In this document: positions 231-21,287 of the stretch, piece by piece
Layout of the letters: every line of letters begins with the position of its first letter
Numbering within the stretch: the first letter of the stretch is position 1
NCBI GenBank assembly: GCA_021648725.1
Contig: JAKISF010000007.1
Span: forward strand, 1 to 40,169
Direction: 5' to 3'
Length of the DNA: 40,169 nucleotides
From: Bacteroidales bacterium
GTDB taxonomy: Bacteria; Bacteroidota; Bacteroidia; Bacteroidales; JAADGE01
Notes under the pieces: model-generated
The model's database searches: none
Told to the model about the DNA's origin: nothing
Seen by the model: the letters and a program-made list of their open reading frames with translations, nothing else
Position numbers and translations under genes: made by a program

Positions 231-670
231 ACTCCGAGTAACAATTTTGAATTTGAACCGGTAACACATATTTTTTAAAATCTTTCGGCATCATAAACAC
301 TTTTTACATATTTTTTCCATCCTGTAACCACTTGAATTTCATCAAGAAATAGAAATTTAACTTTCGTTTGTGTTAATTTTTCTGCTGTTTCAACTATGTT
401 ATATATTCTTTCGGGGTTTTTGTATATCTCTGAAAAATTAGGGTCATCAAAATTAATAAATAAAATAGATTTAGGATTTTCTGATTTTATTAGTTCGTTG
501 ATATACAGTTTTAATAAAGATGATTTTCCGCTACGCCTTAAACCTGTAATTATTTGTATTTCTTTGGTATCATGGAATTTCAATAATTTATTCAGTAAAT
601 CTCGCTTAATTGATATATTAAAACTTTTGTTTTGCCAATGTTTATTATGTAGTAATATTGCATTTTGCAT
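231..670 (-). pseudogene. DUF4143-type AAA ATPase, broken by a stop codon and an IS
   Basis: The ATG at 670 starts an intact ATPase N-terminus: Walker A GLRRSGKSS near residues 43-51 and Walker B FLFLDEIQ near residues 107-114. The frame ends at TAA (275-277) after residue 131. Directly beyond, in the same frame, comes KICVTGSNSKLL, the sensor-1 region expected next in this family, so TAA most simply replaces a lysine AAA. About a dozen codons later the homology stops at the IS boundary. The family's DUF4143 helical and PD-(D/E)XK-like C-terminal parts are missing. Of the other copies in the window it most resembles the one at 17748-18959 (SGSNANLL at the same place). It is last in the glycan gene order and probably inactive. 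Confidence 0.8.
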
Positions 671-765: not shown

Positions 766-815
766 TTGGAAATTTTAATGTGCTTCTTTGCTTGTCAGGT
801 CTAAGTTTATTGAAT
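766..815 (+). repeat. ~50-bp dispersed repeat, copy A
   Basis: This is the first of three related copies in the same orientation (A here, B 17695-17744, C 19088-19137). The shared core is TAATGTGC, then T-[C/T]-TTTGC-[C/T]-TGT, then AGGT-like sequence and TTTATT. Copy A lies about 100-145 bases upstream of the DUF4143 ATPase that starts at 670, much as copy C lies upstream of the ATPase that starts at 18959. No coding potential is evident. The rest of 671-856 holds only the promoter. Confidence 0.65.
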
Positions 816-856
816 ATTATTTTCACTTACAAAAAATAAGGATTATATGCTTAATT

Positions 857-6825: not shown

Positions 6826-7452
6826 TTAAAATTCTGTTAAAGCTTTCTCTGTTAAAAATTCTTTTATTTCTTCGTCCGAAGGTAAGTTTTTAGATAAAAA
6901 AGTAACAGGTTCGGAATAATCTATGTCGGCAAAATATGAAAGTTGTTGATGAAATAATTTAATATTAAAAGCATCTTCGAAAATGTTTTTTGCTTGATTT
7001 GTTATTTCTTTCAGTTGAATATTATTTTTCAATAAAAAATACATGTCTACATAATCTTTCCATTTTGCTCTGCCACCAAAAGCAAAAGCTTTCATTGCTC
7101 CTAAATCTAGTAATGACGGCATTGTAACAATATCCTTTAATTTTTGTTTGTGTTTAATTTTGAACGGAAAATTGAAAAAAGTAAATTTTACTCCGCTTAT
7201 AATAATATGAAGTTGGTCATAAGCTTCGTGTAAAACAGTATATTTTAATTCAAGGTCTTCAAGTCTTTTTTTTATACTTTGCCTTTTAACATTTTTATCG
7301 GTAAACAAATCAAAATCAATTGACATTCTGTGTCCCAAGTATAAAGCAATTGCCGTGCCTCCCACAAGATAAAAATCTTTAGAAAAATTACTTACAACGG
7401 ATAATAATTCAGACTGTTTGTTGCTTAATATCTCAGTGTGCATATTTGTCAA
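6826..7452 (-). CDS. AbiEii-type nucleotidyltransferase (toxin-like), pair 1
   Basis: 208 residues of the AbiEii/AbiGii nucleotidyltransferase family (DUF1814-like). The hallmark motif is LVGGTAIALYLGHRMSIDFDLF near residues 30-51: a GG-T loop followed by two Asp that bind metal. A second conserved region, AMKAFAFGGRAKWKDYVDMYFLL, lies in the C-terminal half. In AbiE systems this protein is a type IV toxin paired with an AbiEi antitoxin. Here the partner is a short DUF6922-like gene whose end overlaps this start by 20 bases. The stop lies 2 bases before the wbuZ start, so the pair is embedded in the glycan operon. Toxicity is inferred from family. Confidence 0.78.
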   Translation of the reverse strand: MTNMHTEILSNKQSELLSVVSNFSKDFYLVGGTAIALYLGHRMSIDFDLFTDKNVKRQSIKKRLEDLELKYTVLHEAYDQLHIIISGVKFTFFNFPFKIKHKQKLKDIVTMPSLLDLGAMKAFAFGGRAKWKDYVDMYFLLKNNIQLKEITNQAKNIFEDAFNIKLFHQQLSYFADIDYSEPVTFLSKNLPSDEEIKEFLTEKALTEF

Positions 7453-7785: not shown

Positions 7786-8934
7786 CTAAAATTCAGAAAT
7801 AAAATCAAGATAATTGTCTCGATTGATTAATTTAAAAGTGTAATTTTGATAATACCTTTGCCATTGCGGCGGAATTTTCACTTTCTTTTTTGTGTATTTT
7901 ATTTCGTAAGCATCAAGTTTGCCGTCAATTTCTTCAATCCAATCTATTTCTTGTTGCGAATAGCTTCGCCAGAAATATGTATCTGCATATATTTTATTGT
8001 ATGACAAATATTTAACACGTTCCGAAATTATATAATTTTCCCACAGTTGCCCGATATCGTTTCGCAAATCAATATCGTTAAAATTATTTATTACGGCATT
8101 GCGAACTCCGTTATCGGCAAAATAATAACGCGACATTTTGCTTATTTCTTTACGCTTATTGTTGCTGTATGCTTTTATTTCAAAAATTACAAATACTTTT
8201 TTTAATAAATCAATGTATCGCTCTACGGTGTTTTTGCTGATGCCTATTTTTCCGGCAATTTCGTTCAACGAAACTTCGCCCCCCACTTGAAAAGATAATA
8301 ATTTCAGGATATTTAACAATTTATCTGAGTTTTTAATATTATCGAGTATTAAAATGTCTTTTAAAAGATATGAATTTATTAATTCGTAGAGATATTCTCT
8401 TTTTTCATCGTAACTATTGTAATGAAATATTTCGGGATAACTTCCGTACAGCAACCTTTCAGGCAATCGTTCGTGTGTTTCAAAATAATTTTCATATTCT
8501 GAAAGTTCGGCTTGTGCCATCGGGAAAATACGAATTGTTTTTTTTCTGCCTGTAAGCGGTTCGCCAAGTTTATTAGTCAAATCAAATGCCGATGAACCTG
8601 TTGCAATTATTTTCAGCTCCGGAATATTATCGTGCATTATTTTTAGAATATGCCCGATATTTTCAATGTTTTGAGCCTCATCTATTATGAAAATTTTGTT
8701 GTTGCCTATTATTTTTTTGTATTCGTCTATGGTTTTGTTTTGCAAGAGGCTTGTTGTTTTGTAATCATCGCCGTTAAGGAAAAGTGTGTTTTTTACTTTA
8801 TTTCTTAATTTTGTCAGGATATAGGTTTTTCCTGTTCGTCTTGCTCCAAGCAAAACAATTACTTTGTTTGTGTGCGGATTAACGGGTTTTATTAATTCGT
8901 TGAGTATTTTACGGTTGTAATCACTTCTCATCAT
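7786..8934 (-). CDS. DUF4143-type AAA ATPase, copy 2
   Basis: About 382 residues from the ATG at 8934; a TTG at 8952 is also in frame but lies inside repeat-like TTGTCAA sequence, so I prefer the ATG. Walker A is LLGARRTGKTY, Walker B IFIIDEAQNI, sensor 1 IIATGSSAFDL. A winged-helix-like part follows (LNEIAGKIGISKNTVERYIDLL), then the DUF4143 core and a PD-(D/E)XK-like end with EIDWI and YEIKY. The family is common and mobile in Bacteroidota; its biochemical role is not established. It sits between wbuY and the toxin-like pair, has its own upstream repeat array and divides the hisH/hisF partners. Confidence 0.8.
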   Translation of the reverse strand: MMRSDYNRKILNELIKPVNPHTNKVIVLLGARRTGKTYILTKLRNKVKNTLFLNGDDYKTTSLLQNKTIDEYKKIIGNNKIFIIDEAQNIENIGHILKIMHDNIPELKIIATGSSAFDLTNKLGEPLTGRKKTIRIFPMAQAELSEYENYFETHERLPERLLYGSYPEIFHYNSYDEKREYLYELINSYLLKDILILDNIKNSDKLLNILKLLSFQVGGEVSLNEIAGKIGISKNTVERYIDLLKKVFVIFEIKAYSNNKRKEISKMSRYYFADNGVRNAVINNFNDIDLRNDIGQLWENYIISERVKYLSYNKIYADTYFWRSYSQQEIDWIEEIDGKLDAYEIKYTKKKVKIPPQWQRYYQNYTFKLINRDNYLDFISEF

Positions 8935-8986
8935 CGAATGATTTATTGACAAATTTAATGCAAATTTTATTAATATAAAAATTAAT

Positions 8987-9080
8987 TCACATTAATTTTG
9001 TCAGGGTATTGACATAATTTATGTTAATTTTGTCAGTTGGTTGACATAATTTGCATTAATTTTGTCAACTGAGTTTATAA
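8987..9080. repeat. Tandem ~32-bp repeats with TGTCA-N6-TGACA dyads
   Basis: Two complete and one degenerate unit in direct repeat (about 8989-9020, 9021-9052 and 9053-9080). Each begins A-T-[T/G]-T-A-A-T-T-T-T-G-T-C-A; the first two contain the dyad TGTCA-N6-TGACA followed by TAATTT. A further partial copy (ATTGACAAATTTAATGC) lies at 8945-8961 next to the ATPase start. The array fills the gap between wbuY and the ATPase at 7786-8934. It could be an operator array for that ATPase or an iteron-like recombination site. No similar array was seen elsewhere in the window. Confidence 0.7.
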
Positions 9081-9091
9081 GAAGATCATTT

Positions 9092-9715
9092 TTAGAAAAA
9101 AAATTCGACAAAGTTTCGCAAAACTTGCATGCCGAATTTGTGACTTTTTTCCGGGTGAAATTGAACGCCGATAATATTTTCTTTTTTAAGACCTACGGTA
9201 AATTCATAGCCGTAATTTGTTGTTGCAATAATGTCTTTTTCGTTGTTTGCTTTAAGGTGATATGAATGCACAAAATAAAATCGCGGCGGAAGTTCGTGCA
9301 GGTTCTGAAAAAGTTTGCAATTTTCATTATAATTAATTTCGGCCCAGCCCATGTGCGGAATTTTATAATGTTCGGGAAGTTTAGATTTATCAAAAGCAAC
9401 AGTTTCTGCATCAAACCAACCGAGACCTTGTTTTTGCCCTTCGGTGCTGCCTTTTGTAAAGAGTTGCACGCCGAGACAAATTCCGAGAATCGGTGTTTTT
9501 TCTTCGAGAACTTTTTTATTCAGGACATCAATTAGTTTGCTGTTTTCGAGTTGCTGCATACCGTAATCGAACGAGCCTACTCCGGGAAGTATTAATTTTT
9601 CTGCATTTTGAATATCCTCAACTTTATCTGATATTATTGATTTTACGCCGATTTTTTTCAGCATATTTTGTATTGAGCGGACATTGCCGGCTTTATAATC
9701 TATTATTGTTAGCAT
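9092..9715 (-). CDS. wbuY: HisH-like glutamine amidotransferase WbuY
   Basis: 207 residues, a class I glutamine amidotransferase with the HisH opening MLTIIDYKAGN. The nucleophile elbow GICLGVQ places Cys at 80; the His/Glu of the triad are in VQFHPEKS (His187, Glu189). The oxyanion region LPGVGSFDYGM and HMGW near 122 also match HisH. With WbuZ and WbuX it would hydrolyse glutamine and channel ammonia for acetamidino formation. It is no longer next to wbuZ: an ATPase and a toxin-like pair lie between. A decayed copy of its own 5' end lies at 11213-11272, next to the sulfotransferase, suggesting rearrangement. Confidence 0.85.
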   Translation of the reverse strand: MLTIIDYKAGNVRSIQNMLKKIGVKSIISDKVEDIQNAEKLILPGVGSFDYGMQQLENSKLIDVLNKKVLEEKTPILGICLGVQLFTKGSTEGQKQGLGWFDAETVAFDKSKLPEHYKIPHMGWAEINYNENCKLFQNLHELPPRFYFVHSYHLKANNEKDIIATTNYGYEFTVGLKKENIIGVQFHPEKSHKFGMQVLRNFVEFFF

Positions 9716-9796: not shown

Positions 9797-9948
9797 TTAA
9801 AGAATAACGGTGCTCAATTTCGTTTTAAATTGAAGCCGGTCTAAATTAACAAGGTATATGTTGTAATTATCATTAATTTTTTGCAGATTTACAATTGCTG
9901 TTCTGTCTTTTAAAAAATTGCATTTATTATTTAAATATTTATCAGATA
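9797..9948 (-). other. Open-frame remnant of unknown origin
   Basis: Downstream of the ATPase at 9931-11100, in a shifted frame, about 50 open codons run to a TAA at 9797-9799 and have protein-like composition (FLKDRTAIVNLQKIND, then YLVNLDRLQFK). There is no start codon of its own and no recognised family. It may be the tail of a decayed gene, or an older C-terminus of the ATPase; the DNA around the junction repeats GATAAATAT twice. The rest of 9716-9930 shows nothing I can name. Confidence 0.3.
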
Positions 9949-11100
9949 TTTATCTAAAAAAATATCAAAGCCACAAACGGTAATATTTTCTTTTATTTTG
10001 TAATCTTCGTTTTGAGTCGGTATAATAATATAATTTTGAGTCGTTTTTAATGTTTCTGTACTACAGATAAAACCTTTTGAAATTTTTGGATTTTCCGTAA
10101 ATTTTATTTCAACGGAAGCAATCGGCTTAAGTCCTTTAACAAGCAGTAAATCAAGTTCTGCACCGGCGTGTGTTCTGTAAAAAAACAATTCTGTATCTTT
10201 ATTTTTTTGAATTTTTATTTGGTTAATAATATAATTTTCCCAAGAATTTCCCACAAGTTGATTGCCTAGTAGCTGCTCGTAATCAGATATTTGCAGCAAT
10301 CTGTGTAATAGTCCCGTATCTGAAATAAAAATTTTAGGGGTTTTAACAAGTCGTTTTTTTATGTTATAAAAATATGGTTGTAAACGATAAACGATATAAG
10401 AATTTTCGAGGAAATCAATATAATTTGCAACTGTTTTATTTGTTACTTTAAGAGAACTTGCAAGTGTATTGTAATTTATCAGATTCCCGGTTTGCCAAGC
10501 GAGCATTTGCCATAATCGTCTTACGGTAACGGGGTTTGCTTTCAATCCGAGCATAGGTAAATCTCGTTCTATATATGTTTTTATAAAATTATCTAACCAA
10601 ATTTTTGCCGTGTCATTATTTTCAGATAAATATGCAAGCGGAAAACCGCCGTAAAAATGATGTTTCTTTAAATCGTATTTATCAGAAATTTCGCCGAAAG
10701 AAAACGGGTCGAGTTTAATATATCCGATTCTTCCTGCAAGTGTTTCGGAGCTTTGCTTTATCAGTTCGGGACTTGCAGAACCGAGAATTATAAATTTGCA
10801 GTTTTTTTTATTTTCATCAACAATTGAACGTATTAAAGGGAATAATTCCGGTTTGCGTTGTATTTCGTCAATTATTATACATTTATTTTTATTTTGCTCG
10901 AAATAAAATTGTGCGTTTTCTAATTTGTTATAATCTGTTATTTTTTCCAGATCAAGATAAACATAAGAATCAATATTTTTTGCGGCATAATATTTTACGA
11001 AAGTTGTTTTTCCGCATTGCCGAGGTCCGAGTATTGCGATAACCGGAAAAATTTTGCAATAATTTTTAACTTCATCCTCTATACTCCTTTTAATCTTCAT
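9931..11100 (-). CDS. DUF4143-type AAA ATPase, copy 3
   Basis: 389 residues, complete. Walker A ILGPRQCGKTTF near 23-34, Walker B CIIIDEIQRKPELF near 74-87, sensor region ILGSASPELIKQSSETLAGR. The helical DUF4143 part includes YGGFPLAYL and LKVTNKTVANYIDFLENSYI; the C-terminal PD-(D/E)XK-like part has FYRTHAGAELDLLL and ASVEIKF. It belongs to a different subtype from copies 1, 2 and 4 (GPRQCGKTT rather than G-x-R-R-x-G-K). It lies between a decayed hisH 5' end and the intact hisH-like gene, as if it entered at the hisH start. Function is unknown; a host-conflict or stabilisation role is inferred. Confidence 0.8.
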   Translation of the reverse strand: MKIKRSIEDEVKNYCKIFPVIAILGPRQCGKTTFVKYYAAKNIDSYVYLDLEKITDYNKLENAQFYFEQNKNKCIIIDEIQRKPELFPLIRSIVDENKKNCKFIILGSASPELIKQSSETLAGRIGYIKLDPFSFGEISDKYDLKKHHFYGGFPLAYLSENNDTAKIWLDNFIKTYIERDLPMLGLKANPVTVRRLWQMLAWQTGNLINYNTLASSLKVTNKTVANYIDFLENSYIVYRLQPYFYNIKKRLVKTPKIFISDTGLLHRLLQISDYEQLLGNQLVGNSWENYIINQIKIQKNKDTELFFYRTHAGAELDLLLVKGLKPIASVEIKFTENPKISKGFICSTETLKTTQNYIIIPTQNEDYKIKENITVCGFDIFLDKYLINI

Positions 11101-11212: not shown

Positions 11213-11272
11213 CTTCAGATGTTTTGTATTGAACGGATATTGCCGGCTTTTGTAGTTGGTTATTGTTAGCAT
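11213..11272 (-). pseudogene. Decayed copy of the hisH-like (wbuY) 5' end
   Basis: From an ATG at 11270-11272 the minus strand reads ATGCTAACAATAA, then AAAGCCGGCAAT-like and TCCG-TCAATACAAAA-like sequence. It matches the first ~55 bases of the intact wbuY (from 9715) at roughly four of five positions, with one extra base that breaks the frame after about 7 codons. It begins 2 bases after the sulfotransferase stop, typical operon spacing, so this is probably the original position of hisH. The similarity ends near 11213, where the upstream region of the ATPase starts. Confidence 0.75.
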
Positions 11273-14360: not shown

Positions 14361-14411
14361 TTTTCCCGGCAGTCCTTTTGAACCGCCTCTTGCCGGTATT
14401 ATTGCTGTCAT
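14361..14411 (-). pseudogene. neuA: N-terminal stub of NeuA (CMP-nonulosonate cytidylyltransferase)
   Basis: The ATG at 14409-14411 opens MTAIIPARGGSKGLPGK, the nucleotide-binding signature at the very N-terminus of NeuA/CMP-sialate synthetases. After codon 17 the similarity stops and no continuation is visible in any frame before the flippase gene. NeuA activates the nonulosonic acid made by NeuB, so this is the missing step of the local pathway. The ATG overlaps the stop of the AbiEii gene (TAATG), a spacing expected of an operon gene. A deletion of nearly the whole gene is the simplest explanation. Confidence 0.82.
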
Positions 14412-15040
14412 TATAAGATACTATTTTTTTGTATGTAATTCTCAACAGAGGATATAATCGTTTTTTTTATATTACCCCAACTCTCCGGTTTAAACATTTC
14501 CGGTGTTTCATTCGTTTCGGCATCTTCAAAATACAATAAACTTTTAAGAACAAGGAATTCTGAGCCGTCAGGATATTTTTCTTTATAAAAATTTAAAATT
14601 TCTGCCAGTTTATATTCTTTTAGTAAAAAAAACAAATCAATAAAGTCTTTTTTTGTTCCTCGCCCGGTTATTGCGGCAAGTTTCATTGCAGATATTTCTT
14701 TTTTACTTGCCAAGATTAATTCATTACTTATAATCTTATTATCAATCCAGTTATAATGATAATTTACGATGTCAACTTTGATTTTATCGATTATATAAAT
14801 ATTTATATTGTCAGATTTTTTTAATATTGTAACATCTCCGACTTTGTCTAATATTTTTGCTATTGTTAAACTATCAACTTTGATTTTACCAAATAAATCA
14901 ATATCAACAGATTTTCTGTGTCCTATTTGCAGAGCAAGCGAAGTGCCGCCGGCAAGACGTAAATCAGAAAATTCAGGAACTTGCAATAATCTCTTTAAAA
15001 GTCCCAGTGTTTTGGTGTCAATTGTTTCATAGTGTAGCAT
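14411..15040 (-). CDS. AbiEii-type nucleotidyltransferase (toxin-like), pair 2
   Basis: 209 residues with the AbiEii nucleotidyltransferase motif LAGGTSLALQIGHRKSVDIDLF near residues 29-50 and the second family block AMKLAAITGRGTKKDFIDLFFLL near 131-153. It is clearly related to pair 1 (6826-7452) but distinct in sequence, so the two are not a recent duplication. The start overlaps its DUF6922-like partner by 46 bases; the stop overlaps the neuA stub start (TAATG). A toxic nucleotidyltransferase role is inferred from AbiE systems. Confidence 0.8.
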   Translation of the reverse strand: MLHYETIDTKTLGLLKRLLQVPEFSDLRLAGGTSLALQIGHRKSVDIDLFGKIKVDSLTIAKILDKVGDVTILKKSDNINIYIIDKIKVDIVNYHYNWIDNKIISNELILASKKEISAMKLAAITGRGTKKDFIDLFFLLKEYKLAEILNFYKEKYPDGSEFLVLKSLLYFEDAETNETPEMFKPESWGNIKKTIISSVENYIQKNSIL

Positions 15041-16310: not shown

Positions 16311-17468
16311 TTATTTAAATGTTAGTTTTTTTATTAAAAAATTAGTGTCGTTAAAGTTCGTGTTTTTTATAATTGACACCATTTTTTTTGCAGTATTACC
16401 CTTTCCGAATTTATATTTCATATTATTTATTTTTGAAGAAAAATTACTGCTTAAAGCTATTTCTATTCCTTTTTTTATAGAGTCAACAGAATAGTTTGTA
16501 TCAATAATACTTTCGTGTTTTATACGACCTTGCTGTCTTATTCCGATATTTACGGTAGGCTTTCTGTAAAACGGAGCTTCAACAATTCCGCTTGAAGAGT
16601 TTCCGATAATAAATTCGGAATATTTCATTAAGTTATGAAAATTGTTTGCTCCCAAAGATTCTATATAATAATAATTGTCATTTTTTTTAACTTCTTCATT
16701 TATGATATTATTTATTTCTTCCCTTTCCGCATCAATATTTGGTGCAGTAATCATAATTTGTAAATTAAAACTATTTAGAGCTAAAAAAACATTTTTCATT
16801 TGTTGTTGTGTAGAAACATCAGATTCGAGTGTTACGGGATGATAGGTCATAAGAACAGTTGGGAGTTCTGAATTTAGTCCCAATTCGGCAAACAAATCAT
16901 TTTTATTTTTCAATTGAATATTTTGCATATTATCGACTGTCAATGCTCCCGTATTATAAACTCTGTGTTTTTCTTCTCCCATTTTAATAATATTTTGGGC
17001 ATATTCTTCACAGGCAACAAAATGTAAATGCGATGCTTTTGTAATCATGTGTCTTATTTGTTCATCAATTGCACCTTCTGACTTTTCACCACCGTGAAGA
17101 TGAATTATTGGCTTACGAAATAATATTGAAGTTTGCACTATTGGCAAAAGCTCGTATCGGTCGCCGAGAATACATACAGCATCAAAAGAAAAATTATTGA
17201 AAATATTTGCAAGTTCAAAAGTTTCTATTCCGAGTGATTTTGTTAAAGAGTATGGGGTATCTTCATTTAACAAATAATCAAAGGTTTTTGTTATTTTAAA
17301 ATTATTATTTTTGATTTCGTTTATTGTGCTCCCGTATTCTTTGGCAAGATGTGTACCTCCGACAAATAAAAAAACTTCGGTAGATGATTCGTTTTTTAAT
17401 TCGGAAATTAACGGTTTTAATATTCCAAATTCTGCACGTGTAGTTGTAAATATTGCTGTTTTTTTCAT
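16311..17468 (-). CDS. neuC: Hydrolysing UDP-sugar 2-epimerase (NeuC/LegG)
   Basis: 385 residues of the WecB/NeuC superfamily, GT-B fold. Key blocks: FTTTRAEFGILKPLI at the start, VCILGDRYELLPI near residue 94, HLHGGEKSEGAIDEQIRHMI near 123-142, and GNSSSGIVEAPFYRKPTVNIG in the C-terminal half. NeuC releases UDP and epimerises C2; LegG does so on UDP-2,4-diacetamido-bacillosamine. The LegBC genes nearby favour LegG. It ends one base before neuB begins. Upstream, 17469-17747 holds repeat B and no gene I can name, then an inserted ATPase that separates it from neuD. Confidence 0.88.
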   Translation of the reverse strand: MKKTAIFTTTRAEFGILKPLISELKNESSTEVFLFVGGTHLAKEYGSTINEIKNNNFKITKTFDYLLNEDTPYSLTKSLGIETFELANIFNNFSFDAVCILGDRYELLPIVQTSILFRKPIIHLHGGEKSEGAIDEQIRHMITKASHLHFVACEEYAQNIIKMGEEKHRVYNTGALTVDNMQNIQLKNKNDLFAELGLNSELPTVLMTYHPVTLESDVSTQQQMKNVFLALNSFNLQIMITAPNIDAEREEINNIINEEVKKNDNYYYIESLGANNFHNLMKYSEFIIGNSSSGIVEAPFYRKPTVNIGIRQQGRIKHESIIDTNYSVDSIKKGIEIALSSNFSSKINNMKYKFGKGNTAKKMVSIIKNTNFNDTNFLIKKLTFK

Positions 17469-17694: not shown

Positions 17695-17744
17695 TTGAAA
17701 AATATAATGTGCTTCTTTGCCTGTTAAGTATGGTTTATTGAATG
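17695..17744 (+). repeat. ~50-bp dispersed repeat, copy B
   Basis: Copy B of the repeat described at 766-815. It begins with TTGAAAAATATAATGTGC, identical over 18 bases to copy C (19088). It ends just before the stop codon of the ATPase at 17748-18959, while copy C lies beyond that gene's start, so the two copies flank the ATPase as direct repeats about 1.39 kb apart. Confidence 0.72.
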
Positions 17745-17747
17745 TGA

Positions 17748-18959
17748 TTATAGTGATATTTTTTCGGATATTAAAAAGTCTATGATATTTATGTGTTTAA
17801 CACCTTGATATGTTTGCACTTTATGTTTATCTGATGATATTACAAGTTTCGGAAAATTATCTTTAATTTTTAATAAATTTCCAAATTCACGGTCAATTAC
17901 TTTTTTGTCCGACAAAATATATGTTACCTGAATGTATATTTTTTCATTATTTTTTTTACAAATAAAGTCTATTTCTCTGTCTTTATGTTTTCCGATTGTA
18001 ATGTCATATCCAAGTCGCGAAATATGATTATATACAAGATTTTCATAAATTTTAGCTATATCTTGCAAACGAAAACCGATAATAGAGTTTCGTAAGCCTA
18101 TATCTGTAAAGTAATATTTCTCGCCTGTTTCAAATATTTTTTTCCCGCCTATTTCTGAACGTTTTACTTTGTTTATCAAAAAAGCGTTTGTAAGAAAGTT
18201 CAAATAATTTAAGACTATATTGTTAGAAATATTTATTCTTTGTGATTTTAAAAAGTCGCTAATTTTTTTTGCTGATATTATATTTCCGGTATTTTCGGCA
18301 ATATACTCGCTTAAATTTTGCAGAAATTCTACATTTCTTATTTTATTTCTTGCTACTACATCTTTTAAAAGTATTGTTTTGTATATATTGCTCAAATAGT
18401 CGAAGACAATTTCATCTTTTAACTCTAAATTTTTAAGATATGGTAAACCACCGAACGTAAGGTATTTATTAAAGCTGTTGTCTGAATTTTTAAGGTTTTG
18501 AAATTCTAAAAACTCAATGTAACTTAACGGAAAGATTTTAAATTCAATGTATCTTCCGCTTAAAAATGTAGCAAGTTCGCCCGAAAGTAGGTTTGCATTA
18601 CTGCCCGAACAATATATATCGTATTTTCCTTCTGCTTGCAGGCTCCTGAGTGCTTTTTCAAAATTCTTTATATCTTGTATTTCGTCAATAAATATTGCTG
18701 TTTCTTTTGCAGGAATAATTTTTGATTGTATATATTCCATTAAATCAACGTAATCTATAATATTCCTAAATTCATATAGTTCTTTGTTTATATAAATTAT
18801 ATTTACATTTTTATTTGTTTCTTGTATTTCGTTTTTTATTTGATACAGAAAATAACTTTTGCCTACTCGACGCTGTCCGACTATAACTTTAATTATATCT
18901 TTATTACGATAAGGTTTTATTTTTTCAAGATATTTTTTTCGTTTTATATATTTTGGCAT
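17748..18959 (-). CDS. DUF4143-type AAA ATPase, copy 4
   Basis: 403 residues, complete. Walker A IVGQRRVGKSYF near 26-37, Walker B AIFIDEIQDIKNFEKAL near 92-108, sensor region YCSGSNANLLSGELATFLSGR. Further on are LTFGGLPYL, a winged-helix-like segment (AKKISDFLKSQRINISNNIVLNYLNFL) and a PD-(D/E)XK-like end with DREIDFICKK and YIQVTY. It is the closest relative in the window of the broken ATPase at 231-670. It lies between neuC and neuD and is flanked by direct repeats B and C. The minus strand has TATTTTTG, a -7 type box, about 40 bases before the ATG, so it probably has its own promoter. Confidence 0.82.
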   Translation of the reverse strand: MPKYIKRKKYLEKIKPYRNKDIIKVIVGQRRVGKSYFLYQIKNEIQETNKNVNIIYINKELYEFRNIIDYVDLMEYIQSKIIPAKETAIFIDEIQDIKNFEKALRSLQAEGKYDIYCSGSNANLLSGELATFLSGRYIEFKIFPLSYIEFLEFQNLKNSDNSFNKYLTFGGLPYLKNLELKDEIVFDYLSNIYKTILLKDVVARNKIRNVEFLQNLSEYIAENTGNIISAKKISDFLKSQRINISNNIVLNYLNFLTNAFLINKVKRSEIGGKKIFETGEKYYFTDIGLRNSIIGFRLQDIAKIYENLVYNHISRLGYDITIGKHKDREIDFICKKNNEKIYIQVTYILSDKKVIDREFGNLLKIKDNFPKLVISSDKHKVQTYQGVKHINIIDFLISEKISL

Positions 18960-19087
18960 ATATCAATTGGTTTTTCATTTAATTCTTGCGACAACAAAAA
19001 TACAAAATGTTTTGAGTATAGTTAAATAAATACAACTAATTAATGTTTTTTTATATTTGTTACCCAATATACAGTAATGCATGCGGC

Positions 19088-19137
19088 TTGAAAAATATAA
19101 TGTGCATCTTTGCTTGTCAGGTAGGGTTTATTTCATA
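19088..19137 (+). repeat. ~50-bp dispersed repeat, copy C
   Basis: Copy C begins with the same 18 bases as copy B, TTGAAAAATATAATGTGC, and continues with TTTGCTTGTCAGGTA and GGTTTATT. It lies ~130-180 bases upstream of the ATPase start at 18959, similar to copy A relative to its ATPase. Between copy C and neuD lies a hairpin (19169-19191); nothing else is recognisable in 18960-19241. Confidence 0.72.
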
Positions 19138-19168
19138 ATTATTTTATTTTCCTTGCCGGGCCTACCCG

Positions 19169-19241: not shown

Positions 19242-19880
19242 TTACTTTATTTTTTCTTTTGCAGGTATTCCAAAAACTGATGTATTTGCATTTATATCAT
19301 TTACAACAACCGCACCTGCAGCAACTAAAACCATATGTCCTATATTTATCCCTGATATTAATTTTGAACCTAAAGCACATAAAGTGCCTTTCCCTACTTT
19401 AACATTTGCCCCAATCGTTACTCCTGCTGAGATAAGGCAATTATCTCCAATAGAAGATTCATGGTCTATTGTAGCTCCTGTTGCAATAATCACATTATTC
19501 CCAATTTTCACTTCTGAGTTTAATATTGCTCCTGCAAAAACAGTAATACCTTTATTTAACAATACAGATTTTGCAATAACAGCTTTCGGGTGAATTGCAT
19601 TTATTATATTAAATCCTTTTGAATGAAATTTATTAAATATTGCTGTCCTTAGTTTATTATCTTTAAATCCTCCTATTCCAAGAGCAATATTTTTCATTCC
19701 TTTCTCATAATAAGAATAAAGAACACTATCATCACCTAATACCGGTAACCCGCAAAACTCTTTTTTATTATTTTGCTTTGATGTTACACCTAATATTTTA
19801 TACTGTTTTGTTTCTAACAAAATATCAATTAAAATTTTAGCATGCCCACCATCACCTACAATTATTACTTTTTTCTTCAT
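19242..19880 (-). CDS. neuD: NeuD/PglD-family sugar acetyltransferase (LegH role)
   Basis: 212 residues. An N-terminal Rossmann-like sugar-nucleotide domain opens with IIVGDGGHAKILIDIL. The C-terminal left-handed beta-helix (from ~100) has ATIDHESSIGDNCLISAG, whose DH (His140) matches the catalytic His of PglD, then hexapeptide turns ending VVVNDINANTSVFGIPA. PglD/LegH acetylate the 4-amino group made by the LegC aminotransferase; NeuD proper O-acetylates sialic acid. With LegB and LegC in the same gene set the LegH role is preferred. It follows the AlbA_2 gene by about 57 bases. Confidence 0.82.
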   Translation of the reverse strand: MKKKVIIVGDGGHAKILIDILLETKQYKILGVTSKQNNKKEFCGLPVLGDDSVLYSYYEKGMKNIALGIGGFKDNKLRTAIFNKFHSKGFNIINAIHPKAVIAKSVLLNKGITVFAGAILNSEVKIGNNVIIATGATIDHESSIGDNCLISAGVTIGANVKVGKGTLCALGSKLISGINIGHMVLVAAGAVVVNDINANTSVFGIPAKEKIK

Positions 19881-19937: not shown

Positions 19938-21287
19938 TCATTTTATTATTTCCCAATAACCAGATTTATCCGATCCTACTCGTTTAATTATTTTTAATTC
20001 TCTCAGTTTCTTTAAATCTCTTTTTATTGTTTCTCTGTTTACTTGATGTTTTTCTGCTAATTCTTTTTGTGTTATATGTTTTTTTGCCCCAATATCTTTT
20101 ATTATGCGTTTTTGCCTACTATTTACAGGCACATTTACAGGCACATTTACAGGCACATTTTTATTTTCAGCAAAAACAGTTACCATAAAACCTGCTGAAA
20201 TATTTCTAAATTCGGGTTCAGGTAAATCGGCATTTTTAAACTGTTCTATAATTCTTTGAATTCCGGAACCGTATTTTTCAATCAAACCTATATTTTTACA
20301 AAAATCTGCAATTGACTTATTTCGAGGCGTTGATTTATAATTGTTCGACAATAAATCTTCAACAGTAATATCATCAGGCAGTTTGCCCGGATTATAAAAT
20401 TCTATGCGATTATCAAATATTTTTACAATACTGTCAGATGAAGCTCTGTAATCTCTGTGAATTATCATATTTATTACAATTTCTCTTATTGCTTCGAGAG
20501 GATATTGCCACCTTTGAGTATTTCTGGCTTGTTCTGTAATAATTATTTCTTTATTGATGTGTTTTTTTACAAAATCAATTACAAAATTAATTTGAAATAA
20601 AATATCTGATTTTGAGCGTAAGCTGTCTTTTATTATCGTATTTGTCTGAAAACGACCTAATTCAATAGTTGTTAGTACTGTGTCTCGTTCAGTAAACAGC
20701 AGATAAGCTGCATTTGTTAATTTTTCATTTCTTACTAAATCATTTTTTAACAAAAACGTCAGGGGATTATCGTTTGTTTGGTTTTCTGTTTGATTATATA
20801 AATTTATACTATTTTGAACTTTATCGAATGATATGTCTTCAATTTTAAACTCATTATTTGTATAATAATCCCAACTGGTATTAAATGAGCGTAAGTGCAT
20901 ATTTACCAATTCGGAAATTTCAATTAAATGGTTTGAATTTGATACTCGTTTATAATATTTGCCCTGAATTGCAACAGGTTTTACAGGATATTCCTGTATG
21001 AAAAAAATAACTATATTTTTATCATCTATTTTTATCTTATCAGCATCAGGAATAAGTGAAGGGCTTGTTTTACTTTTTATTTCATTAAGCCAATTTTGTA
21101 TGCTTTCTTTTGCGAGTTCAACTCCCGCAATATTACTTTTGTCGGAAACTCCAAGAATCACCTTTCCGCCTTTGGAATTAGCAAAAGCTACAAGCGTCTC
21201 GATTACCTGCCTGTTAAAATTTAGTTTAAATTCAAGCTGTTCGTTTTCGCCTTGTGAAATGATATGTAAAAGTTCTTTTTTCGTCAT
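19938..21287 (-). CDS. AlbA_2/Schlafen-type ATP-binding transcriptional regulator-like protein
   Basis: 449 residues. The N-terminal AlbA_2 domain shows ESLEFK-like EQLEFKLNF at 16-24 and VAFANSKGGKVILGV. A RecG-like GHKL ATPase region follows: YPLEAIREIVINMIIHRDY, then FYNPGKLP and LIEKYGSGIQRI. A C-terminal winged helix (ITQKELAEKHQVNRETIKRDLKKL) ends it. Between lies a Val-Pro-Val-Asn run encoded by a 12-bp repeat. Proteins of this class are usually accessory or defence-linked and poorly characterised. The ATG overlaps the legC stop by 4 bases (ATGA), so it is coupled to the glycan operon. Confidence 0.8.
   Translation of the reverse strand: MTKKELLHIISQGENEQLEFKLNFNRQVIETLVAFANSKGGKVILGVSDKSNIAGVELAKESIQNWLNEIKSKTSPSLIPDADKIKIDDKNIVIFFIQEYPVKPVAIQGKYYKRVSNSNHLIEISELVNMHLRSFNTSWDYYTNNEFKIEDISFDKVQNSINLYNQTENQTNDNPLTFLLKNDLVRNEKLTNAAYLLFTERDTVLTTIELGRFQTNTIIKDSLRSKSDILFQINFVIDFVKKHINKEIIITEQARNTQRWQYPLEAIREIVINMIIHRDYRASSDSIVKIFDNRIEFYNPGKLPDDITVEDLLSNNYKSTPRNKSIADFCKNIGLIEKYGSGIQRIIEQFKNADLPEPEFRNISAGFMVTVFAENKNVPVNVPVNVPVNSRQKRIIKDIGAKKHITQKELAEKHQVNRETIKRDLKKLRELKIIKRVGSDKSGYWEIIK
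20121..20156 (+). repeat. Three perfect copies of a 12-bp tandem repeat in the AlbA_2 gene
   Basis: ATTTACAGGCAC is repeated three times and followed by ATTT. On the coding strand it encodes N-V-P-V repeats between the ATPase region and the winged helix. The unit is a multiple of three, so copy-number change alters linker length without breaking the frame. Confidence 0.9.

Follow-up and report, generated by a model that had tools for sequence, protein, structure and literature searches.

The 40,169-nucleotide (nt) stretch analysed here, contig JAKISF010000007.1 of a Bacteroidales bacterium (assembly GCA_021648725.1; hereafter the window), carries several genes for ATPases with a DUF4143 domain, one of which lies between neuC and neuD and is bracketed by direct repeats. 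We conclude that a DUF4143 gene is probably a self-recognising, homing-like mobile nuclease cassette that travels with the end of a neighbouring gene. The repeats, present in three copies (A, B and C), are, by alignment and translation, decayed starts of the gene wecE, that is, coding remnants read on the minus strand. The features concerned are the following.

275-670, minus strand: broken AAA_14 ATPase of 131 amino acids, after copy A (Pfam)
766-823, minus strand: copy A, decayed wecE 5′ end (81% over 57 nt to the wecE start, E 4.5e-8)
16311-17468: neuC, on one side of the ATPase at 17748-18959
17695-17752, minus strand: copy B, wecE 5′ remnant, codons about 4-21 (94% over 54 nt, E 7.9e-18; 18/18 amino acids)
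17748-18959, minus strand: DUF4143 ATPase (AAA_14 plus DUF4143; PADLOC PDC-S01), from Pfam, PADLOC, motif columns and a structure model
19088-19145, minus strand: copy C, wecE 5′ remnant (84% over 68 nt, E 1.7e-13; 82% over 17 amino acids)
19242-19880: neuD, on the other side of the ATPase at 17748-18959

To identify the repeats we used copy B with its flanking sequence as a query against the genome that the window comes from (66 contigs, 3.24 Mb). Four sites stood out, namely those of B, C and A and a further one on contig C42, with E values from 1.5e-36 to 1.2e-7, and the next match was at 0.01. On C42 the match covers the first codons of an intact 378-amino-acid aminotransferase, which NCBIfam names dTDP-4-amino-4,6-dideoxygalactose transaminase, WecE/RffA. 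Copy B sits directly 3′ of the ATPase at 17748-18959, overlapping its last 5 nt, and translates on the minus strand as NKPYLTGKEAHYIFQ; copy C, upstream of the same ATPase, translates as NKPYLTSKDAHYIFQA, and copy A keeps LTSKEAH before running into a stop. As the repeat is wecE coding sequence, it is neither an attachment site nor an operator, and we discarded both possibilities. The intact wecE on C42, outside the window, also lies directly 3′ of a DUF4143 gene, a truncated open reading frame (ORF) whose stop overlaps the wecE start codon. All four strong sites in the genome, wecE on C42 included, adjoin a DUF4143 or AAA_14 gene, an association that the original prediction had proposed, and the layout it described was also borne out: the copies are where it placed them, B and C have their first 18 bases in common and bracket the ATPase between neuC and neuD, and copy A lies upstream of a broken ATPase, the AAA_14 fragment at 275-670. 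Its suggestion that the repeat is a site of gain and loss survives in part, since the repeats do mark gain or loss of cassettes by recombination, flanking repeats being commoner than around neighbouring genes (see below), and yet there is no dedicated site, only the 5′ end of wecE. Its other suggestion, a regulatory sequence carried with the cassette, has to be abandoned, because the repeat is the wecE 5′ end and the duplicated sequence around other cassettes is a different one. A 14-base core of the repeat, allowing up to one mismatch, occurs at nine places in the genome, matching exactly at four (those of copies A, B and C, and a place on contig C30) and with one mismatch at five (C42, C7:4799, C14, C41 and C49); neither this search, in which five of the nine places (the exact ones and C42) were followed up, nor that with copy B supports a genome-wide element. 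We took the C30 match as chance, lying as it does inside argB on a likely contaminant contig (L001, G000:C30), which is Sulfurimonas-like campylobacterial by gene content. Across genomes, a query with the wecE start found 14 places, two of which (G057 and G000:C24) were short matches whose local ORFs are not wecE-like and were likewise taken as chance.

Direct repeats are found around DUF4143 genes well beyond this locus. For each DUF4143 ORF we aligned 600 nt upstream plus 40 nt inside the ORF with the 450 nt past the stop, and counted a direct repeat at a score of at least 20. Our relatives set was the best-scoring part of the match list, in which 130 family hits gave 115 distinct ORFs after length and flank filters, a few of them being orthologous loci of related genomes. 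Flanking repeats were present at 22 of these 115 ORFs and in none of 920 mismatched pairs, while neighbouring ORFs had them in 3 of 103 cases and their mismatched pairs in 1 of 824 (22/115 versus 3/103, Fisher P 1.7e-4). The three control ORFs are one Bro-N gene and two others; the Bro-N gene (L048 333-1187) has a strong direct repeat (score 61), and other solitary genes may behave alike. A second, named set of 80 loci from several phyla yielded 79 ORFs, 77 of them with enough flank, the overlap with the relatives set being at least one locus (L274, a duplicate of L104); there, 19 of 77 had flanking repeats, against 0 of 616 cross pairs. Solitary YhcG nucleases gave a comparable picture, with repeats at 4 of 18 loci and in 0 of 144 mismatched pairs, once 12 of 30 loci had been dropped for short flanks or broken ORFs. 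What is duplicated varies from site to site and may be a gene start, a gene end, a terminator or a promoter, the gene ends including the wecE start, the hisH start and the rfbA end; lengths run from 32 to about 335 nt. Some of the matches are tandem or low-complexity sequence (for example L046, L245 and L290) and are to be discounted. In the cases looked at, the repeats enclose one ORF, the ATPase, and no transposase turned up, although no transposase search was made on the cassettes. Two further arrangements were seen: at L117 (1433-2782), a stretch of 152 nt that takes in the 3′ end of the ATPase gene and some sequence past it recurs upstream of the gene at 90% identity, as if by recombination between tandem cassettes, and the YhcG cassette at L206 has a 170-nt duplication comprising 5′ untranslated region and roughly 40 codons of the gene that lies downstream (read as a lipoprotein), with an open frame in each copy.

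The window itself holds another example, around its second DUF4143 gene.

9092-9715, minus strand: intact hisH-like gene for a glutamine amidotransferase, its start present twice (GATase in Pfam; the name hisH is read from sequence)
9931-11100, minus strand: second DUF4143 ATPase (Pfam; direct repeat of score 32)
11214-11272, minus strand: hisH 5′ remnant from its ATG, upstream of the second ATPase (59-nt alignment to 9657-9715)

This ATPase lies 215 nt ahead of the hisH start and is thus bracketed by a 59-nt repeat, the hisH remnant upstream and the intact hisH-like start downstream. The distribution of such repeats bears on the proposal that we are looking at chance or at shuffling of host operons, in which sugar loci often swap wecE and the ATPases are bystanders. 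Loci such as wecE, neu and rfb are indeed prone to recombination, and wecE remnants occur only in the window's genome (G000), G016 and G036 among the 60 genomes searched. Nevertheless, both sets show the excess of flanking repeats over cross pairs, and the first set shows it over neighbouring genes as well; it also reaches hisH and intergenic terminators, so we consider shuffling very improbable.

The differences between repeat copies bear on where the second copy came from. In L256, from a Chitinophagales metagenome-assembled genome, the ATPase comes after a complete nucleotidyltransferase gene, read as rfbA, and is succeeded by a duplicate, some 335 nt long, of sequence close to the 3′ end of that gene. 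Of the 74 differences between the copies, 51 fall at third codon positions, 16 at first and 7 at second; with most of them at third positions, each copy would have diverged as a functional gene until one was displaced. G036 has a wecE remnant of the VYKHSHISGNG type ahead of a YhcG gene, which is followed by an intact wecE of the VSSGHISGNG type. The divergence of the copies in L256 and G036 fits a foreign gene end imported with the cassette. A different origin would be a long target-site duplication made by an unknown transposition-like insertion, whose copies decay afterwards. It draws on near-identical repeats that hold a terminator, or a promoter and a gene start (L131, 78 nt at 99%; L255, 2 mismatches in 80 nt), and on L038, where both copies share a serine found in none of the nine congeners with a readable gene end (two further congeners were unread). 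The same locus also speaks the other way, because the arginine of all nine congeners is retained by the displaced copy and lost from the gene; L038 therefore gives signs in both directions on a native or an imported end. Repeats of 32 to about 335 nt, moreover, do not have the short fixed length of the duplications made by an insertion sequence or transposon, the rfbA copies and the wecE types of G036 argue that the copies were not identical at insertion, and the sole ORF between the repeats is the ATPase, with no transposase seen there, in the cases looked at. On balance we regard duplication of the target as unlikely. A single process may cover all cases if the donors range from the same to other species, and two processes are also possible. 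In G036 and G016 the wecE remnant stops at one and the same codon (about 62, judged by eye) despite different cassettes, YhcG in the former and an AAA_35 ATPase in the latter, which hints at a preferred break point.

Comparison of related sites supports gain and loss of cassettes. Genome G027 carries two cassettes that are 93% identical over 1292 nt at unrelated sites, the similarity running from 162 nt before the ORF to the last sense codon and ending there, with TGA as the stop codon of one and TAA of the other; neither has a flanking repeat. Upstream of dnaG, the site was readable in 12 of the 14 genomes of a genus, of which three are filled with a DUF4143 gene, its stop 1-3 nt ahead of the dnaG ATG, and nine are empty. 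In two of the nine empty sites the gap matches both the cassette leader (scores of 16-27.5, the other seven reaching at most 13) and the last codons (11.5-13.5, the others at most 8), and this leader-plus-tail match is, from its two parts, the footprint of an internal deletion. The number of DUF4143 matches (E of 1e-10 or less) differs from 0 to 32 among genomes of one genus.

Besides the duplicated ends, many DUF4143 genes have a series of short repeats (iterons) at a spacing of 32 nt upstream, as the third gene of the window illustrates.

7786-8952, minus strand: third DUF4143 ATPase (DUF4143 domain; PDC-S01)
8983-9067, minus strand: its iterons, two palindromic and a weaker third, with a period of 32 nt

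Alignment of the two flanks of this ATPase found no flanking repeat. We scanned from −260 to +60 of each ORF. In the relatives set an upstream repeat occurred in 48 of 115 ORFs, 38 of them at a lag of 31-33 or 64; neighbouring ORFs had an upstream repeat in 6 of 103 cases and none at iteron lags (0/103 versus 38/115, P 1.2e-12). The named set had an upstream repeat in 51 of 79, 47 of them at a lag of 32, 33 or 64, against 6 of 93 control ORFs, one of which was at lag 33 (47/79 versus 1/93, P 1.1e-19); the query for this set was built from mostly iteron-bearing members, so 47/79 is not a whole-family rate. Nearly all arrays (77 of 80) have two or three copies, their start lies some 85 nt ahead of the ORF (medians of −84 and −88), and their units are palindromic in 48 of 80 cases, compared with 2 of 80 after shuffling. 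The similarity of iteron units tracks that of the proteins (Spearman 0.44; 500 permutations gave a mean of 0 and a maximum of 0.20), a co-variation that is uneven over the lower bins and to which a few closely related loci contribute, one pair being identical. The three-turn period, the palindromes and the co-variation point to iterons bound by the gene's own protein, presumably for self-recognition or autoregulation. The iterons are a regulatory-looking element, to judge by their layout, and are distinct in sequence from the wecE repeat. The two iterons of the third ATPase have no other exact match in their own genome; allowing three mismatches gives one further place (contig C6), and a reversed control pattern gives two. 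By the broken AAA_14 ATPase there is a weak 32-nt repeat (742-757 and 710-725, lag 32) with a score of 11, the threshold being 13, and the 18 solitary YhcG genes have no 32-nt iterons. We also considered the iterons as terminal repeats at both ends of the cassette, and rejected this because a downstream match was found in only 2 (L061 and L066) of 37 arrays, one of the 38 having been dropped for too short a core. Further downstream matches were a weak one in L092 and one in L263 of the named set. Downstream repeats in general occur in 11 of 115 cassettes, 5 at a lag of 32, 33 or 64, and in 9 of 103 control ORFs, 3 at lag 32, which may lie upstream of a cassette.

The protein combines an AAA+ ATPase, a winged helix and a PD-(D/E)XK motif, and corresponds to PADLOC PDC-S01. 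The ATPase at 17748-18959 scores 106.9 bits for AAA_14 and 61.9 bits for DUF4143, above the curated cut-off. Alignment columns, with the intact PD-(D/E)XK of the ATPase at 9931-11100 as reference for the motif, show the Walker A lysine in 110 of the 115 relatives and the Walker B D and E in 111 and 112; the nuclease-motif residues E, D, E and K are present in 109, 112, 110 and 109, and the D..(E/Q/D)xK motif is intact in 108. Structure models reached a predicted local distance difference test (pLDDT) score of 91.4 for the ATPase at 17748-18959 and of 89.5 for one member with iterons. The former, over residues 1 to about 300, resembles STAND proteins, Orc/Cdc6 and archaeal AAA+ ATPases (the last with Z about 18), and the second model gave similar matches; the fold of the C-terminal domain is a putative assignment from the motif and the published description. 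A sequence-based search for a solved DUF4143 structure, with a profile of 15 sequences, gave three matches, all VCP-like ATPases, and none for DUF4143. These properties also suit a single-gene anti-phage effector (PDC-S01) spread by ordinary transfer, with the iterons as autoregulatory operators and the gene-end repeats as by-products of recombination. The three complete ATPases of the window match PDC-S01 models (best E 2.5e-147 for that at 17748-18959, 5.8e-85 and 2e-149), and the accessible part of PMC12988326 ranks PDC-S01 as the fourth most common defence system and describes an ATPase with PD-(D/E)XK. The STAND/Orc-like fold predicted by the model agrees with such a role, and two genes for AbiEii-type nucleotidyltransferase toxins are present at the locus as well (6826-7452 and 14411-15040, in the polysaccharide region). 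However, defence alone leaves unexplained the placement at the ends of dnaG, hisH, rfbA and wecE with duplicated ends, and as a full account we think it rather unlikely; defence and a mobile cassette are compatible with each other. Within 19 kb the window has three complete DUF4143 genes and one AAA_14 fragment, and a solitary Schlafen AlbA_2/RecG-C-like gene (19938-21287) stands between neuD and a LegC-type aminotransferase gene.

A mobile, self-recognising one-gene cassette that travels with gene ends covers most of these observations. Such a cassette would consist of a short 5′ leader, often with palindromic sites spaced by 32 nt, and one AAA+/winged-helix/PD-(D/E)XK ORF, whose product probably binds the sites in its own leader. 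Cassettes would settle at gene ends and in intergenic gaps, often moving while joined to the neighbouring gene end. We suppose that the protein cuts its target, as in homing, and that the nuclease drives the movement: a break in the recipient would lead to one-sided homologous copying of gene end and cassette from a donor, the other side of the break would then be joined, and the recipient's own gene end would be left as a truncated remnant. The wecE repeats would be the gene start left in this way around the cassette. Several observations weigh against this explanation. The ATPase at 17748-18959 has no 32-nt iterons upstream and shows D..QxT, with the catalytic lysine of PD-(D/E)XK replaced; its paralogue on contig C10, which has no 32-nt array, likewise has QxT instead of ExK, and the two may belong to a branch that has lost nuclease activity. 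No flanking repeat is detectable at 93 of 115 cassettes, about four in five, nor at the three dnaG insertions. Break points differ, being at about codon 62 in G036 and G016 and at about codons 21-23 in the window. The repeats of L131 and L255, mostly non-coding, look like fresh duplication of one site, better than like import of a foreign end. Finally, we looked by eye at 29 other wecE loci, those scoring best among matches in 255 of the 395 genomes of the class, and saw no such gene at the start of any (three have little upstream sequence), so that wecE is unsupported as a general hot spot. We hold a stronger version only tentatively, at somewhat less than even confidence: the DUF4143 family would be largely intron-less homing elements, whose AAA+ nuclease recognises its own iterons, enters cassette-free gene ends and brings a replacement end that keeps the host gene working.

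The accessible part of a 2026 survey counts 29,494 PDC-S01 in Bacteria and 9,986 in Archaea, and places it fourth in frequency among the defence systems of prokaryotes, most PDCs awaiting validation (PMC12988326). It is the same protein family as the DUF4143 ATPases of the window, whereas the label, in that part of the source, says nothing on mobility, gene-end duplication or 32-nt iterons. Among the papers listed, in a coverage that leaves out subscription papers and preprints, titles and opening lines of abstracts hold nothing on mobility or iterons of the DUF4143/COG1373/PDC-S01 family; one of these papers, on a phage nuclease (PMC8263062), makes frequent use of the term iteron. Self-specific 32-nt iterons and the duplication of gene ends would offer a way into the binding targets of these proteins and their mode of spread, and counts of the abundance of defence may in part be counting mobile nuclease genes. 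Among solved structures the closest folds over the AAA+/winged-helix part are the archaeal AAA+ ATPases Sso1545 (2fna) and PABY2304 (2qen), with Z of 18.2 and 18.3, but this is likeness of fold only, at 19-21% identity, and the matches hardly test the C-terminal domain. The free-standing homing endonucleases of T4-like phages are also intron-less mobile nuclease genes beside their target genes; they are phage-borne and of the GIY-YIG or HNH type, and we know of no gene-end remnants in them. By analogy, the closest mechanism known to us appears to be that of fungal mitochondrial mobile ORFs (mORFs). According to the accessible part of PMC3630166, these place a nuclease ORF at a gene end together with a replacement end, and the displaced native end is kept as a diverged remnant, as in atp6 of Allomyces and atp6, atp9, cox2 and nad3 of Glomus. 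The DUF4143 cassettes differ in having an AAA+/PD-(D/E)XK protein in bacterial chromosomes and not a LAGLIDADG or GIY-YIG nuclease, in lying at both 5′ and 3′ gene ends, and in their iterons, and cleavage is here something that we infer. They resemble mORFs in that a cassette adjoins a gene end of which there is another copy (wecE, hisH and rfbA), and in that filled and empty alleles exist among relatives (dnaG, 3 filled and 9 empty of 12, those insertions being without flanking repeats). If our explanation is correct, DUF4143 cassettes would be a bacterial counterpart of the mobile ORFs of fungal mitochondria.
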